DNA of 64,000 nt from Natrinema halophilum (GTDB lineage Archaea; Halobacteriota; Halobacteria; Halobacteriales; Natrialbaceae), in the NCBI RefSeq assembly GCF_013402815.2, contig NZ_CP058601.1:1922001-1986000 (forward strand), given 5' to 3'. Position 1 is the first letter of the stretch; every line of letters begins with the position of its first letter. Below the pieces are notes generated by a model. It made no database searches. It was given only the letters and a program-made list of their open reading frames with translations, and was not told the origin of the DNA. Positions 29,274 to 33,731 of this stretch are shown here, piece by piece. The translations under genes and the position numbers were made by a program.

Positions 29274-30401
29274 CTAGTCGTCGCTTTCGGCGGCATCGTT
29301 TGCGGGATCGGTGACAGAAATTTCAGACTCGCTGCCCTCCGAGACTTCGCTATCCACGCTGACGCCCTCCCAGTCCTGGTCGGCGTGGTACCCCTCTCGT
29401 TCCTTTGCGCTAGGCGCGACGCGGATGAATTCGGCATTTTCGCGCGCCGCTGGGATCGTATGGCCGCCGCAGTAGGAGAGCCCCGACTGAATGCCGGCGC
29501 GGAACTCGTCGACGACGTCGGTAACGGGCCCCTTGTACGGCGTCAGCGCCTCGACACCCTCGTCGGCGCGAACGTCGGCCTCTTTGTCGTCTCGTTTTTC
29601 CGCGGCCGTCGTGGTCGCCATTCCGCGCGAGCGCTTGTATTGCGTTCCCTCGACCTCGACGACCGCGCCGGGGGCTTCCTCGGTGCCGGCGAAGAGGCTT
29701 CCGAGCATTACGGAGTCCGCCCCGGCCATCAGTGCCTTTACCGCATCGCCGGATGTTCGGATACCGCCGTCTGCACAGATCGTCACGTCGAGATTCTCGG
29801 CCGCCGTCGCGCAGTCGTCGATGGCGGTCAACTGCGGGACGCCCGCGCCAGCGACCTTCCGGGTCGTGCAGTGAGAGCCGGGACCGATGCCGACTTTGAC
29901 GCAGTCGGCTCCAGCGGCTGCGAGGTCTTCGACGCCGGCCGGTGTCGCGACGTTGCCGGCGACGAGATCGGTCTCTGGAAACTCCGTTCGGAGTCGCTCG
30001 ACGGCCTCGAGCGCGCTCTCGAGGTGACCGTGGGCAACGTCGACGACGAGCGCGTCGACGCCGGCCGCAACGAGCGCGTCGCTACGGGCGACATAGTCCT
30101 CGTTGATTCCGACGGCGGCGGCTACCTGTTCGCCGGCTTCGGCCACTCGTTCCACCTGGTCCGCCTGTTCATCCGGCGTCAGAAATCTGTGCAGAACGCC
30201 GATCCCCCCGGCGCGAGAGAGTTCGATCGCCAGCTCGGCCTCCGTCACGGTATCCATCGCGGCGGAAACGAGCGGAGTCTGCAATTCGACTGACGATGTA
30301 AACGACGACGTGAGATCTACGTCGCTGCGGCTATCGACTGGTGAGCGGTTCGGGACGAGGAGGACGTCACCGTAGCTCAACCCGGTTCGGAGATCGTTCA
30401 T
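29274..30401 (-). CDS. guaB: IMP dehydrogenase / GMP reductase family protein without CBS domains
   Basis: 375 aa. TIM barrel of the IMPDH/GMPR family: [15 protein letters not shown], the metal- and nucleotide-binding region [20 protein letters not shown], the loop [20 protein letters not shown] with the catalytic Cys, and [20 protein letters not shown]. The C-terminus has the flap-containing [15 protein letters not shown] and [20 protein letters not shown]. The CBS regulatory module of classical IMPDH is absent, so it resembles the short guaB paralogue or GMP reductase; sequence alone does not decide between oxidation of IMP and reduction of GMP. The acidic C-terminal extension of about 40 residues is haloarchaeal. 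Confidence 0.9.
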
Positions 30402-30553: not shown

Positions 30554-31027
30554 CTACGTCCGTGGATTCCGGTCCGGTCCCGCGTACTCGCCCCCCTCGG
30601 TAGCCTCGTAGAGGCTCGCAGCGTCGAACAGGGTTACGAACGCGTCCGGCGGCCGGATGCTAACTGCAACGCGAGGTTGCAGCGTCAGGCCCGCTTCTGC
30701 CGATCGGAGCCGTTCGTCGTACGACAGCAGGTGCGCCGCACCCCCCTGATACGCTGAGGCCAGGGCGGGATGGTCCCCTTCCGGCTGATCGACTCGGATG
30801 CGTTCGGCCTCGAGTCGTGCCCGATGGTCGGCGGCGAGGTCGGGATCGGCGAGGGTCGCCACGAGCCGTTCGGTTTCTTCGAGGAGCGGATCGCTCGCGA
30901 CGAGGTCGATCCATGAGTGTCGACGGACGTGGTCCAGTGACTCGCGGGCGTCACCACCGAGGAGGAGATCCGCCGCGAGCACGTCCGCATCGGCAACCAC
31001 GCGGGCAGGATCCGATTCCTCAGGCAT
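30554..31027 (-). CDS. PIN-domain protein (probable toxin-like nuclease)
   Basis: 157 aa from the ATG at 31025-31027 (MPEESDPARV). PIN-fold acidic residues: first Asp in RVVADADVLAADLLLGGDAR, second acid in SDPLLEETERLVATLAD, third Asp in EGDHPALASAYQGGAAHLLS followed by YDERL. PIN domains cut RNA with metal ions, and many are toxins of type II pairs. The start codon lies inside the preceding 37-aa reading frame (8 nt overlap), so the two are tightly coupled. Its partner has the size of a small antitoxin. A housekeeping role in RNA processing is an alternative. Confidence 0.72.
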   Translation of the reverse strand: MPEESDPARVVADADVLAADLLLGGDARESLDHVRRHSWIDLVASDPLLEETERLVATLADPDLAADHRARLEAERIRVDQPEGDHPALASAYQGGAAHLLSYDERLRSAEAGLTLQPRVAVSIRPPDAFVTLFDAASLYEATEGGEYAGPDRNPRT

Positions 31028-31133
31028 CCTCGCCCTCCCGACCCCGAATCGCCTCGAGTTCCGTTCGGATGCGCTCGAGGTCGCCGTCGTACGCCGCTCC
31101 ACGGTCGAACAGGTCGTCCCAGCTTGCGGTCAT
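31020..31133 (-). CDS. 37-aa micro-ORF, possible antitoxin-like partner of the PIN protein
   Basis: Starts at the ATG 31131-31133 and reads MTASWDDLFDRGAAYDGDLE followed by RIRTELEAIRGREGEDA, ending at the TGA 31020-31022. The strongly amphipathic, acidic helix composition and G/C-rich third positions argue for a real gene. It overlaps the start of the PIN-domain gene by 8 nt. Small antitoxins are typically longer than 37 aa, so a different small-partner role is possible. Confidence 0.65.
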   Translation of the reverse strand: MTASWDDLFDRGAAYDGDLERIRTELEAIRGREGEDA

Positions 31134-31229: not shown

Positions 31230-32525
31230 TCACTCGTTGGAGACGAGATAGGGTTCGGCGCTCCAGCCCCAGAGATCGTACGCGGGAACGTAAAGGCCCC
31301 ACCAGCGGATGCCGTCGTTAGTTTCGGGGCCGTTGACGATCGTTTCGGTGGTCCCCTGCGGGAGTACTCGCTTGACGGTGTATCCCAGACCGGGAGCCTG
31401 TCGGGCTCTGAGGGCCGTCGTCGTGGTCACCGTCTCGTCGACGTGGAATGCGACCCTGGAGAGGTAGTTCTCCGAACACCAAACCCAGACGTCGTGCGTC
31501 GAGAAGTGTAGCCCCCACCAGCGGATGCCGTCGTTGGTTTCGGGGCCGTTCATGATTCGGCCGACCGAGCCTGCCGGCAGCGTTTCGACGACTCCGTAGT
31601 CGAGTCCCGGTCCCTCACGTCCGTTCAGGTCGGCCGTGGTCACCGCTCCATCTTCCATCTCGAACGGACGATTCCCGTCACTACCGTCACCGCCATCGCC
31701 ACCATCGTCGCTACTATCGCCACCATTGTTGCTGCTATCGCCACCATCGTCGCTACTACCGCCACCATTGTTGCTGCTATCGCCACCATTGTTGCTGCTA
31801 TCGCTACCATCGTCGCTGCTATCGCCACCATCGTCGCTGCTATCGCTGCTATCGCTACCATCGCTGTCGTTACCGCTCCCACCGTTTCGAACGTACTTCA
31901 TGAAGATGCCCGGGTCCCAGTCGGGACCCGGACAGGACTTCGACGGAAGGTGGTTGCAGGCGGAGTCCTGGGGCGCGTGGCGGTGGCCGATAATCCCGCC
32001 CGACTCGTTGCAGTGAGCGCTACCGTACTCGTAGTACTCGAGGGGAACGTCGTATCGTTCGGCCAGTTCGCGGACGACTGCGGCCGACGCCCGGTAACAT
32101 TCGTCGGTGAAGTACCGGCCGTAGTTCCGGTGCCACTCGTGCTCGATGCCGATCGAGGAGGTGTTCGAGCCGCGTGCGTGCCAGGCGACGTCTTCATGGG
32201 GTACCATCTGGGTCACGTGTCCCGGCGCGTAGTCGGTGTGCTCGTAGTTGCTGATTACGTAGTGGGCGCTGACGTTAGCGCTCGGGGTCTGAAAGTGGCT
32301 GATCGCTCCGGCGTACCTACCCACGGTACAGTGGATCACGATCCAGTCGATGTCGGCCGCGTCACGGGACGAACCCGAGTAGTTAGTCGAATCGGCCGCG
32401 ACGAAACGGTCGGCAGCCTCCGCCTGCGTCCGCGAATGGGCGCGCGCAGTCGACGAGCCGACCGCGTACAGCTCGCCGATACCGGCGGAGAGGACCGTCG
32501 CGGTGAGGAACGGTCGTCGTTCCAT
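31230..32525 (-). CDS. Predicted secreted zinc N-acetylmuramoyl-alanine amidase with two SH3-like domains
   Basis: 431 aa from the ATG at 32523-32525 (MERRPFLTATVLSAGIGELY). The start is fixed by a box A just upstream, which overlaps the longer frame's start codon. Signal peptide, then an Amidase_2/PGRP-type domain (about 45-205): IDWIVIHCTVGRYAGAISHF, GHVTQMVPHEDVAWHARGSN, SIGIEHEWHR, GIIGHRHAPQ and SKSCPGPDWDPGIF. Predicted zinc ligands are His65, His181 and Cys198, as in PGRPs. A 70-residue linker of Ser/Asp/Gly/Asn repeats (about 215-288) joins two bacterial-type SH3 domains, each with NGPETNDGIRWWGL. The enzyme would cut murein, which archaea lack, so bacterial walls are the likely target. 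Confidence 0.88.
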   Translation of the reverse strand: MERRPFLTATVLSAGIGELYAVGSSTARAHSRTQAEAADRFVAADSTNYSGSSRDAADIDWIVIHCTVGRYAGAISHFQTPSANVSAHYVISNYEHTDYAPGHVTQMVPHEDVAWHARGSNTSSIGIEHEWHRNYGRYFTDECYRASAAVVRELAERYDVPLEYYEYGSAHCNESGGIIGHRHAPQDSACNHLPSKSCPGPDWDPGIFMKYVRNGGSGNDSDGSDSSDSSDDGGDSSDDGSDSSNNGGDSSNNGGGSSDDGGDSSNNGGDSSDDGGDGGDGSDGNRPFEMEDGAVTTADLNGREGPGLDYGVVETLPAGSVGRIMNGPETNDGIRWWGLHFSTHDVWVWCSENYLSRVAFHVDETVTTTTALRARQAPGLGYTVKRVLPQGTTETIVNGPETNDGIRWWGLYVPAYDLWGWSAEPYLVSNE

Positions 32526-32550: not shown

Positions 32551-32560
32551 TAATATATAC
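32551..32560 (-). promoter_or_regulatory. Box A of the secreted amidase gene
   Basis: taatatatac, centred about 31 nt upstream of the ATG at 32523-32525; transcription would start about 4 nt before it. The in-frame ATG at 32564 lies upstream of the predicted transcription start and is excluded. Confidence 0.6.
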
Positions 32561-32609: not shown

Positions 32610-33731
32610 TTATCCCGTCTCGCTCGCCGACGGACGGTGCTGAAGTGCCACGTACGCGACGGCCCCGACGCCGAACGCGATGCCGACGTTTACGGCCACT
32701 CCGACGAGACCGACACTGACGACCAGCGCGAGCGACCAGGGGTTCGAGACGGGCTCGAACGCCGCTCGAGAGAGTTCGAGTGCAACGACGGCGAGCAGGA
32801 CGCCGAGGATCGCCATCGGGAAGGCCGCGAGGACGACACCCGAAGCAACCAACGCGAGCGCGAGGTATCCCACCCCGAGCAGAACGTTCGCGCCGCCGGT
32901 TTGCGCGCCGAAGGCGTACTTTCCGGCGAGGCCGCCGCTGCCGTGACACATCGGGATGCCACCGACCGGAATCGCGGCGAGGCAGGTCAGGCCCATACTC
33001 CTCGAGAGCGCGTCCGCCGAAATCTCCCGATCGTAGAGATCGCCACAGAGCAGGGCCGTCGCGATGGCCGCGTTCCCGATCGTCATCCCGAGCTGGGCCA
33101 CGGTCCCCTCGATCGCGGCCGTACTGATGGACGGGGGTCCCGCAGGAAACAATGCGAGTTCCGGAATCGCTGGCGTCGGGATTCCGGCCGTCGCGGCGGT
33201 CGCGATTCCACCGAGTCCGAGCACGACGAGGACGCTGGCTGCACCGTACCCGGCGAGAGCCAGCACACCGACGACAACCAGCCCGGCAACAGCGATCGGC
33301 GGATTTCCGACCGAGAGGTCGACGGCCGCCTCGAGTAAGAGTAACGCGACTGCAAACTGGACGCCGCGGATAACCGGTTCGCCGACGATGCGCTGAAGTT
33401 TGCCGACGAGACCGAGGTAGCCGACCAGAAGCAAAACGCTACCCGCGAGTAGTCCGGCCGCGGCGAGTTCGGCGTAGGAGAGTCCGCCGACGATCGCCAG
33501 GCCGATCAGGGCTTTCATCGGTTCGACGGAAAGCGGCAGCCCGTAGTAGAGACCCCAGACGATCTGAAAGACGCCGAATCCCACGAGTACGTGTGGAAGC
33601 GAGACGGTCGTCGTCGCAGCCAGCGCGACGACTAGCGGGAGGACCGTAACCGAATCGCCTAGCGCACCCGTCAGTTCGTTGGCGGAGAACTCGAGATCCG
33701 CGTCCGACTGCGACCGGAACGAGTGCGCCAT
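32610..33731 (-). CDS. MOT1-type molybdate/sulfate transporter
   Basis: 373 aa with about ten hydrophobic segments. Family landmarks: LEFSANELTGALGDSVTVLP at the N-terminus, PLSVEPMKALIGLAIVGGLS, IGNAAIATALLCGDLY, and GGIPMCHGSGGLAGKYAFGA followed by QTGG. These match the MOT1/SulP-like family that moves molybdate with high affinity in plants and algae; prokaryotic members are annotated as putative sulfate or molybdate transporters. The gene is divergent from the AIR-synthase-like gene at 34014. Molybdate as substrate is inferred. Confidence 0.87.
   Translation of the reverse strand: MAHSFRSQSDADLEFSANELTGALGDSVTVLPLVVALAATTTVSLPHVLVGFGVFQIVWGLYYGLPLSVEPMKALIGLAIVGGLSYAELAAAGLLAGSVLLLVGYLGLVGKLQRIVGEPVIRGVQFAVALLLLEAAVDLSVGNPPIAVAGLVVVGVLALAGYGAASVLVVLGLGGIATAATAGIPTPAIPELALFPAGPPSISTAAIEGTVAQLGMTIGNAAIATALLCGDLYDREISADALSRSMGLTCLAAIPVGGIPMCHGSGGLAGKYAFGAQTGGANVLLGVGYLALALVASGVVLAAFPMAILGVLLAVVALELSRAAFEPVSNPWSLALVVSVGLVGVAVNVGIAFGVGAVAYVALQHRPSASETG

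Follow-up and report, generated by a model that had tools for sequence, protein, structure and literature searches.

The gene at positions 31230-32525 of the window (the whole 64,000-nucleotide stretch of Natrinema halophilum DNA analyzed here) very likely encodes a Tat-exported zinc murein amidase with SH3b domains that lyses or inhibits neighboring bacteria. Haloarchaea have no murein of their own, and the target of such an enzyme must therefore be other cells. From the sequence, we assign the identity as a secreted murein amidase and the target as bacteria rather than self with high confidence, and killing rather than feeding as the main use with moderate confidence; in this explanation we infer the export itself, the activity, the target, the killing, and the cooperation with a second enzyme. 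The open reading frame originally proposed is real and the gene is intact, reading on the minus strand from an ATG at 32525 to a stop at 31230 and translating into 431 amino acids. The gene, its parts, and its neighbors are as follows, with the evidence for each in parentheses.

32610..33731, minus strand: MFS_MOT1 molybdate-type transporter, the upstream syntenic neighbor (Pfam PF16983; conserved neighbor in relatives)
32551..32559, minus strand: TATATATT(A) element, a probable archaeal TATA box (sequence, by eye)
31230..32525, minus strand: Tat-type Amidase_2 protein with two SH3b domains, 431 aa (open reading frame, translation, Pfam, homologues of the same layout)
32433..32525, minus strand: twin-arginine signal region, MERRPFLTATVLSAG..., residues 1-31 (RRxFL motif, conserved R3/R4)
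31881..32435, minus strand: catalytic Amidase_2 domain, residues 31-215 as modeled (Pfam, conservation, T7 lysozyme and AmpD equivalences, fold)
31668..31880, minus strand: Gly/Ser/Asp/Asn linker (Tandem Repeats Finder, composition)
31455..31667, minus strand: SH3b domain 1, residues 287-357 (SH3 alignment; fold matches to LytB and other SH3 domains)
31233..31454, minus strand: SH3b domain 2, residues 358-431 (Pfam SH3_3 at 371-427; fold matches 2krs and 8b2s)
30554..31102, minus strand: DUF7384 protein, the downstream syntenic neighbor (Pfam PF24109; conserved neighbor in relatives)

The TATATATT element lies ~26-34 nt upstream of the amidase ATG, and a TATA-like element at such a distance is the expectation for a leaderless haloarchaeal transcript. 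A scan for bacterial-type promoters and terminators found none, a result that is uninformative for an archaeon. Both GC and GC3 of the gene are similar to those of neighboring genes, and the catalytic domain is under purifying selection (dN 0.15 and dS 0.98 against Halovivax; dN/dS ~0.15). The signal peptide of the original prediction is probably one of Tat type, with predicted export: the N terminus, MERRPFLTATVLSAG, shows the Tat-type pattern (MERRPFL, RRxFL), and R3 of the motif is present in 24/24 and R4 in 23/24 homologue rows.

Pfam Amidase_2 (PF01510) matches residues 57-201 with an E value of 1.1e-25 (90.9 bits against a cut-off of 26), spanning profile positions 3-131 of 131. The zinc ligands, read at the outset as H, H, and C, are H65, H181, and C198, and all are intact together with the catalytic E128; H65, H181, and E128 are invariant in 24 homologue rows, and the third ligand position, 198, is occupied by Cys in 16 and by Asp in 8 of them. 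In an alignment to T7 lysozyme, H65, H181, K196, and C198 correspond to its H17, H122, K128, and C130 (numbering without Met), and Ala87 sits where that enzyme has its catalytic Tyr46, a position occupied by A or S in the aligned relatives, both bacterial and archaeal. K196 is variable, with T, R, or H in relatives. As E128 falls on AmpD E116 in a profile alignment and Ala replaces Tyr46, the catalytic site is predicted to be of the AmpD/PlyL type (Glu128) and not of the T7/PGRP type; of the Amidase_2/PGRP domain first described, the Amidase_2 assignment thus holds, but a T7/PGRP-type site does not. A profile search of the PDB placed AmpD among the best sequence matches (E 1.3e-5); phmmer with the single amidase sequence against the PDB gave no match. 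Fold prediction and comparison with PGRP and AmpD folds had been suggested as a check, and the model does match the PlyL, AmpD, and LytA amidases: the AlphaFold model of the catalytic domain, of moderate confidence, gave Z values of 9.4-10.5 (VIA), with rmsd 3.5-4.2 over 135-159 residues, to PlyL, LytA, AmpD, and others (~9.5-10.5 for PlyP100, PlyL, LysC, LytA, and AmpD), and all matches listed for it have the Amidase_2/PGRP fold. It should be noted that the AlphaFold models have a mean pLDDT of 59-60 (catalytic domain pTM 0.68), with a pLDDT <50 for the zinc-ligand loop 184-199.

The predicted linker of ~70 residues is present at approximately residues 216-286, where G, S, D, and N predominate. 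Tandem Repeats Finder showed that it is encoded by a 21-bp tandem repeat (7.2 copies, 31695-31846). Close relatives have short Gly/Asp linkers, for which reason the long acidic linker appears to be a local expansion peculiar to this copy and a dispensable part; with its length coming from tandem-repeat expansion, the idea that it suits high salt is a weak one. The repeat is in frame, and its length is likely variable between strains. The two C-terminal SH3-like repeats were recovered as two SH3-like barrels in the fold model, and matched SH3_3 twice at 24.3 bits, just below the Pfam cut-off of 27; the Halovivax-type orthologue (L004) scores above it, at 39.1 bits. Fold matches of this part include, among others, the Clostridium SH3b domain 2krs, the SH3-like wall-binding domain 8b2s of a GH24 muramidase, and LytB.

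Taken as a mechanism, a zinc N-acetylmuramoyl-L-alanine amidase would be exported via Tat, and outside the archaeal cell its two SH3b domains would anchor it to the bacterial wall. With Zn on H65/H181/C198, E128 would act as general base and K196 as transition-state helper; cutting of the MurNAc-L-Ala bond would weaken the sacculus, and halotolerant bacteria would be lysed or inhibited, with nutrient release as a likely side benefit. The amidase would probably work beside an SLT-SH3-M23 enzyme bearing a related SH3 domain. This 402-aa Tat-type protein, consisting of an SLT transglycosylase, an SH3 domain, and an M23 peptidase, is encoded in the same genome (G000, contig 1 at ~3,446,300-3,447,600; L002 1018-2226, plus strand), and its SH3 domain is 45% identical to the amidase SH3. 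Judged from their domains, the two enzymes between them could cleave amide, glycan, and peptide bonds. Proteins matching the SH3 domain were also seen in the genus members G012 and G017, and a second M23 gene lies near 3,559,500 of contig 1 in G000 (L083 760-2421, minus strand); its product, ~542 aa long, combines an M23 domain with a hydrophobic N-terminal region.

Amidase_2 proteins occur in 51/391 sampled Halobacteria genomes, representing 21/86 genera, and their architectures comprise the amidase alone, the amidase with one to four SH3 domains, SH3 followed by the amidase, the amidase with two PG_binding_1 domains, and the amidase with four SH3 domains and a glucosaminidase. Fusion to a glucosaminidase is found in L012 and to PG_binding_1 pairs in L022 and L036/L037; because the recognized fusion modules are murein modules, murein is the common substrate theme of the family. 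The glucosaminidase fusion, from Natronosalvus hydrolyticus (L012 73-2103, minus strand; L031 4001-6025, plus strand), is a Tat-type amidase with four SH3 domains and a C-terminal glucosaminidase, and by its domain content a predicted two-activity murein hydrolase. Phylogenetic analysis placed the modular haloarchaeal amidases, including the window protein, in a supported clade (98/93), and the single-domain Tat amidases in a separate one (100/99). Bacterial sequences in the tree were drawn from a plasmid collection only, whose matches were mostly actinobacterial (the best from Nonomuraea, 43%); those from actinobacteria group in a clade by themselves (100/99). An actinobacterial donor gains no support from the tree, which with this plasmid-collection sampling does not put the haloarchaeal clades within the actinobacterial sequences.

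Natronococcus (L029, L030) and the genomes G029 and G089 share the order MOT1-amidase-DUF7384, and in Halovivax the amidase adjoins DUF7384; beyond DUF7384 in the window, at 29274-30401, lies a putative guaB, named by reading. The amidases of the syntenic locus form one clade of seven rows (support 96/91). None of the 28 further genomes of the same genus has the gene: among 14 of the genus examined, MOT1 and DUF7384 are directly adjacent in 13 and separated by an unrelated gene in one, and a search of three longer MOT1-DUF7384 gaps of sister genomes revealed no amidase remnants. The intervening gene (L090 1152-3047) is an unrelated ORF of ~436 aa, apparently a membrane protein. In the simplest history the gene is old in the family and most of the genus has lost it; regain through recombination at the site may have occurred. 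A recent mobile-element insertion is ruled out, as the neighbors that could be recognized are normal chromosomal genes, and Natronococcus, Halovivax (on the DUF7384 side), and two further genomes have the amidase at this site as well. The amidase is 72% identical to that of Halovivax and ~52% to that of Natronococcus, whereas its flanks resemble those of Natronococcus more. This pattern first suggested an allele exchange in which the donor was Halovivax-like, an explanation that was dropped, since the long Natronococcus branch lies within the same syntenic clade (96/91) and simple divergence with loss therefore suffices.

Haloarchaeal murein hydrolases that kill a halophilic bacterium were described in August 2025 by Strock et al. 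(PMC12352652), which reduces the novelty implied in the original prediction. In that study Woldo (M23 with PG_binding_1) and Danwoldo (glucosaminidase with PG_binding_1) of Halogranum salarium have Tat signals, were found in the supernatant, and kill Halalkalibacterium halodurans; the question of weapon or scavenging was left open (PMC12352652). The window protein resembles these two in being haloarchaeal, in its predicted Tat-type signal, and in joining a catalytic domain to putative tandem wall-binding domains, and its genome, like that of Halogranum salarium, encodes two such enzymes with related binding domains, within a patchy distribution. It differs in having Amidase_2 and not M23 or glucosaminidase, and SH3b in place of PG_binding_1. 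Strock et al. defined their peptidoglycan hydrolases (PGHs) by at least one Pfam murein-cutting domain and at least one Pfam wall-binding domain (PMC12352652); Amidase_2 supplies the former in the window protein, and because a binding domain was required and SH3_3 falls below its cut-off, this copy could have escaped their survey. Whereas they treat a plasmid location of PGH genes as a sign of conflict (PMC12352652), the window locus, in contrast to their plasmid-biased PGHs, is old, chromosomal, and common to several genera, a point against the antibacterial reading.

Among bacterial and phage enzymes, PlyL/PlyG, LytA, and XlyA share the Amidase_2 fold, the zinc site, the catalytic Glu (PlyL E90), and often a C-terminal wall-binding domain with the window protein; they belong to phages or murein-bearing bacteria, whereas the window protein bears a predicted Tat signal and comes from an archaeon. 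AmpD/AmiD/AmpDh are similar in the equivalence of E128 and AmpD E116 and in the PDB profile match, but AmpD works in the cytoplasm, recycling the murein of its own cell, whereas the window protein has a predicted export signal, Cys and not Asp as third ligand, and added SH3 domains.

The original prediction had named both an antibacterial weapon and a feeding enzyme aimed at bacteria. Its biochemical part, a secreted zinc murein amidase with wall-binding SH3 domains directed at bacteria and not at self, has good support from the protein family, the motifs, the fold, the conservation, and the haloarchaeal precedent (PMC12352652); feeding on murein sugar has become less probable. For the latter use, the relevant comparison is with other haloarchaea, in which the set known from bacterial murein salvage (NamZ, NagZ, amidase, AnmK) is clustered, in some with a single-domain amidase. 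Three Halorussus species have a plasmid cluster encoding AnmK, a single-domain amidase, a beta-lactamase-family protein, NamZ, NagZ, GH18 enzymes, an IclR regulator, and an ABC transporter, of which Pfam confirmed AnmK, the N and C domains of NamZ, the GH3 NagZ-type enzyme, and the amidase. An example is found at L113 11473-25398 on plasmid NZ_CP100402.1 of Halorussus aquaticus (others are L114, L115, L144, L146, and L147), and the conserved cluster also holds a glycosidase-like protein. G122, G029, and G083 have clusters of a related kind, of which only that in G122 includes the amidase. NamZ is encoded in 16 and AnmK in 15 of 391 Halobacteria genomes, and all 15 AnmK genomes have NamZ. From its gene content, the NamZ-AnmK-NagZ-ABC transporter cluster is probably a murein-eating island; no paper on the haloarchaeal NamZ-AnmK cluster was found in the literature collection searched.

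If the window enzyme likewise served feeding, the uptake as food of peptides and glycan freed from dead or living bacterial walls would be its purpose and killing incidental, a reading that we regard as possible but on balance rather unlikely. It gains from the union of single-domain Tat amidases with AnmK, NamZ, NagZ, beta-lactamase-family, and ABC transporter genes on the Halorussus plasmids, from Amidase_2 being commoner in genomes with NamZ (11/16 against 40/375; by genus, 8/12 of those with NamZ, p 0.001, with relatedness partly controlled), and from the higher frequency of Opp/MppA uptake genes in PGH genomes (Strock et al., PMC12352652). The amidase in the clusters read, however, belongs to the single-domain clade and not to the SH3 clade, and the window amidase stands alone, with no recognized uptake or catabolic gene adjoining it. 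Moreover, searches for NamZ (PF07075) and AnmK (PF03702) gave no match in G000, and this absence, together with the second secreted-type wall hydrolase, favors lysis or killing over eating of murein sugar. Feeding on peptides, lysate, or cell contents without use of murein sugar is possible, and feeding and killing are compatible with each other.

More generally, haloarchaea could be split into "killers", with exported SH3 or PG_binding hydrolases and no use of MurNAc, among them the window organism with its matched pair of enzymes, and island-bearing "eaters" with single-domain amidases that live on bacterial wall, a proposal we make tentatively and hold to be doubtful. In G029 and G083 the island occurs together with an SH3 amidase, and the split would therefore not be clean. 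If true, the proposal would settle for each lineage separately whether these enzymes serve as weapons or for food, which Strock et al. left open.

An amide bond in the glycoprotein or glycan envelope of the archaeon itself, or of another archaeon, is a very unlikely substrate. A gamma-glutamyl polymer is reported for Natronococcus walls, Natronococcus has orthologues at the same locus, and the gene is long resident in the family; the patchy occurrence (51/391 Halobacteria genomes, and none of the 28 further ones in the genus) nevertheless argues against a housekeeping wall enzyme, and the recognized fusion partners of the family are murein modules. A protein that binds or senses without catalysis, like the non-catalytic animal PGRPs, would be consistent with the presence of T, R, or H in place of K196 in related proteins, but is extremely unlikely given that E128 and every zinc ligand are preserved here and conserved across the homologues and that the third ligand is only C or D, each found in active amidases (T7 lysozyme and AmpD, respectively). 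An endolysin of a provirus or phage remnant is scarcely credible despite PHROG matches (best E 1.2e-17, unknown function; 3e-14, lysis, amidase) and a fold close to endolysins, as no relative was found among 50,697 phage records (tblastn) or in IMG/VR (pattern search), the recognized neighbors are ordinary chromosomal genes at a locus common to several genera, the Tat signals are conserved, and a haloarchaeal virus would find no murein in its own host.

With a secreted antibacterial amidase thus the preferred reading, what is new here, as judged from sequence, is that both the catalytic family and the binding domain differ from those already known in such enzymes and that the locus is chromosomal and common to several genera. 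Salt-adapted murein amidases would also be of practical interest. To the archaeal murein hydrolases discovered in 2025 the finding would add an Amidase_2/SH3b branch, present in part of the Halobacteria, that can be a resident chromosomal gene and not plasmid cargo. The contrast between G000, with two secreted-type hydrolases and neither NamZ nor AnmK, and its island-bearing relatives would offer a direct genetic test of whether such archaea kill or eat.
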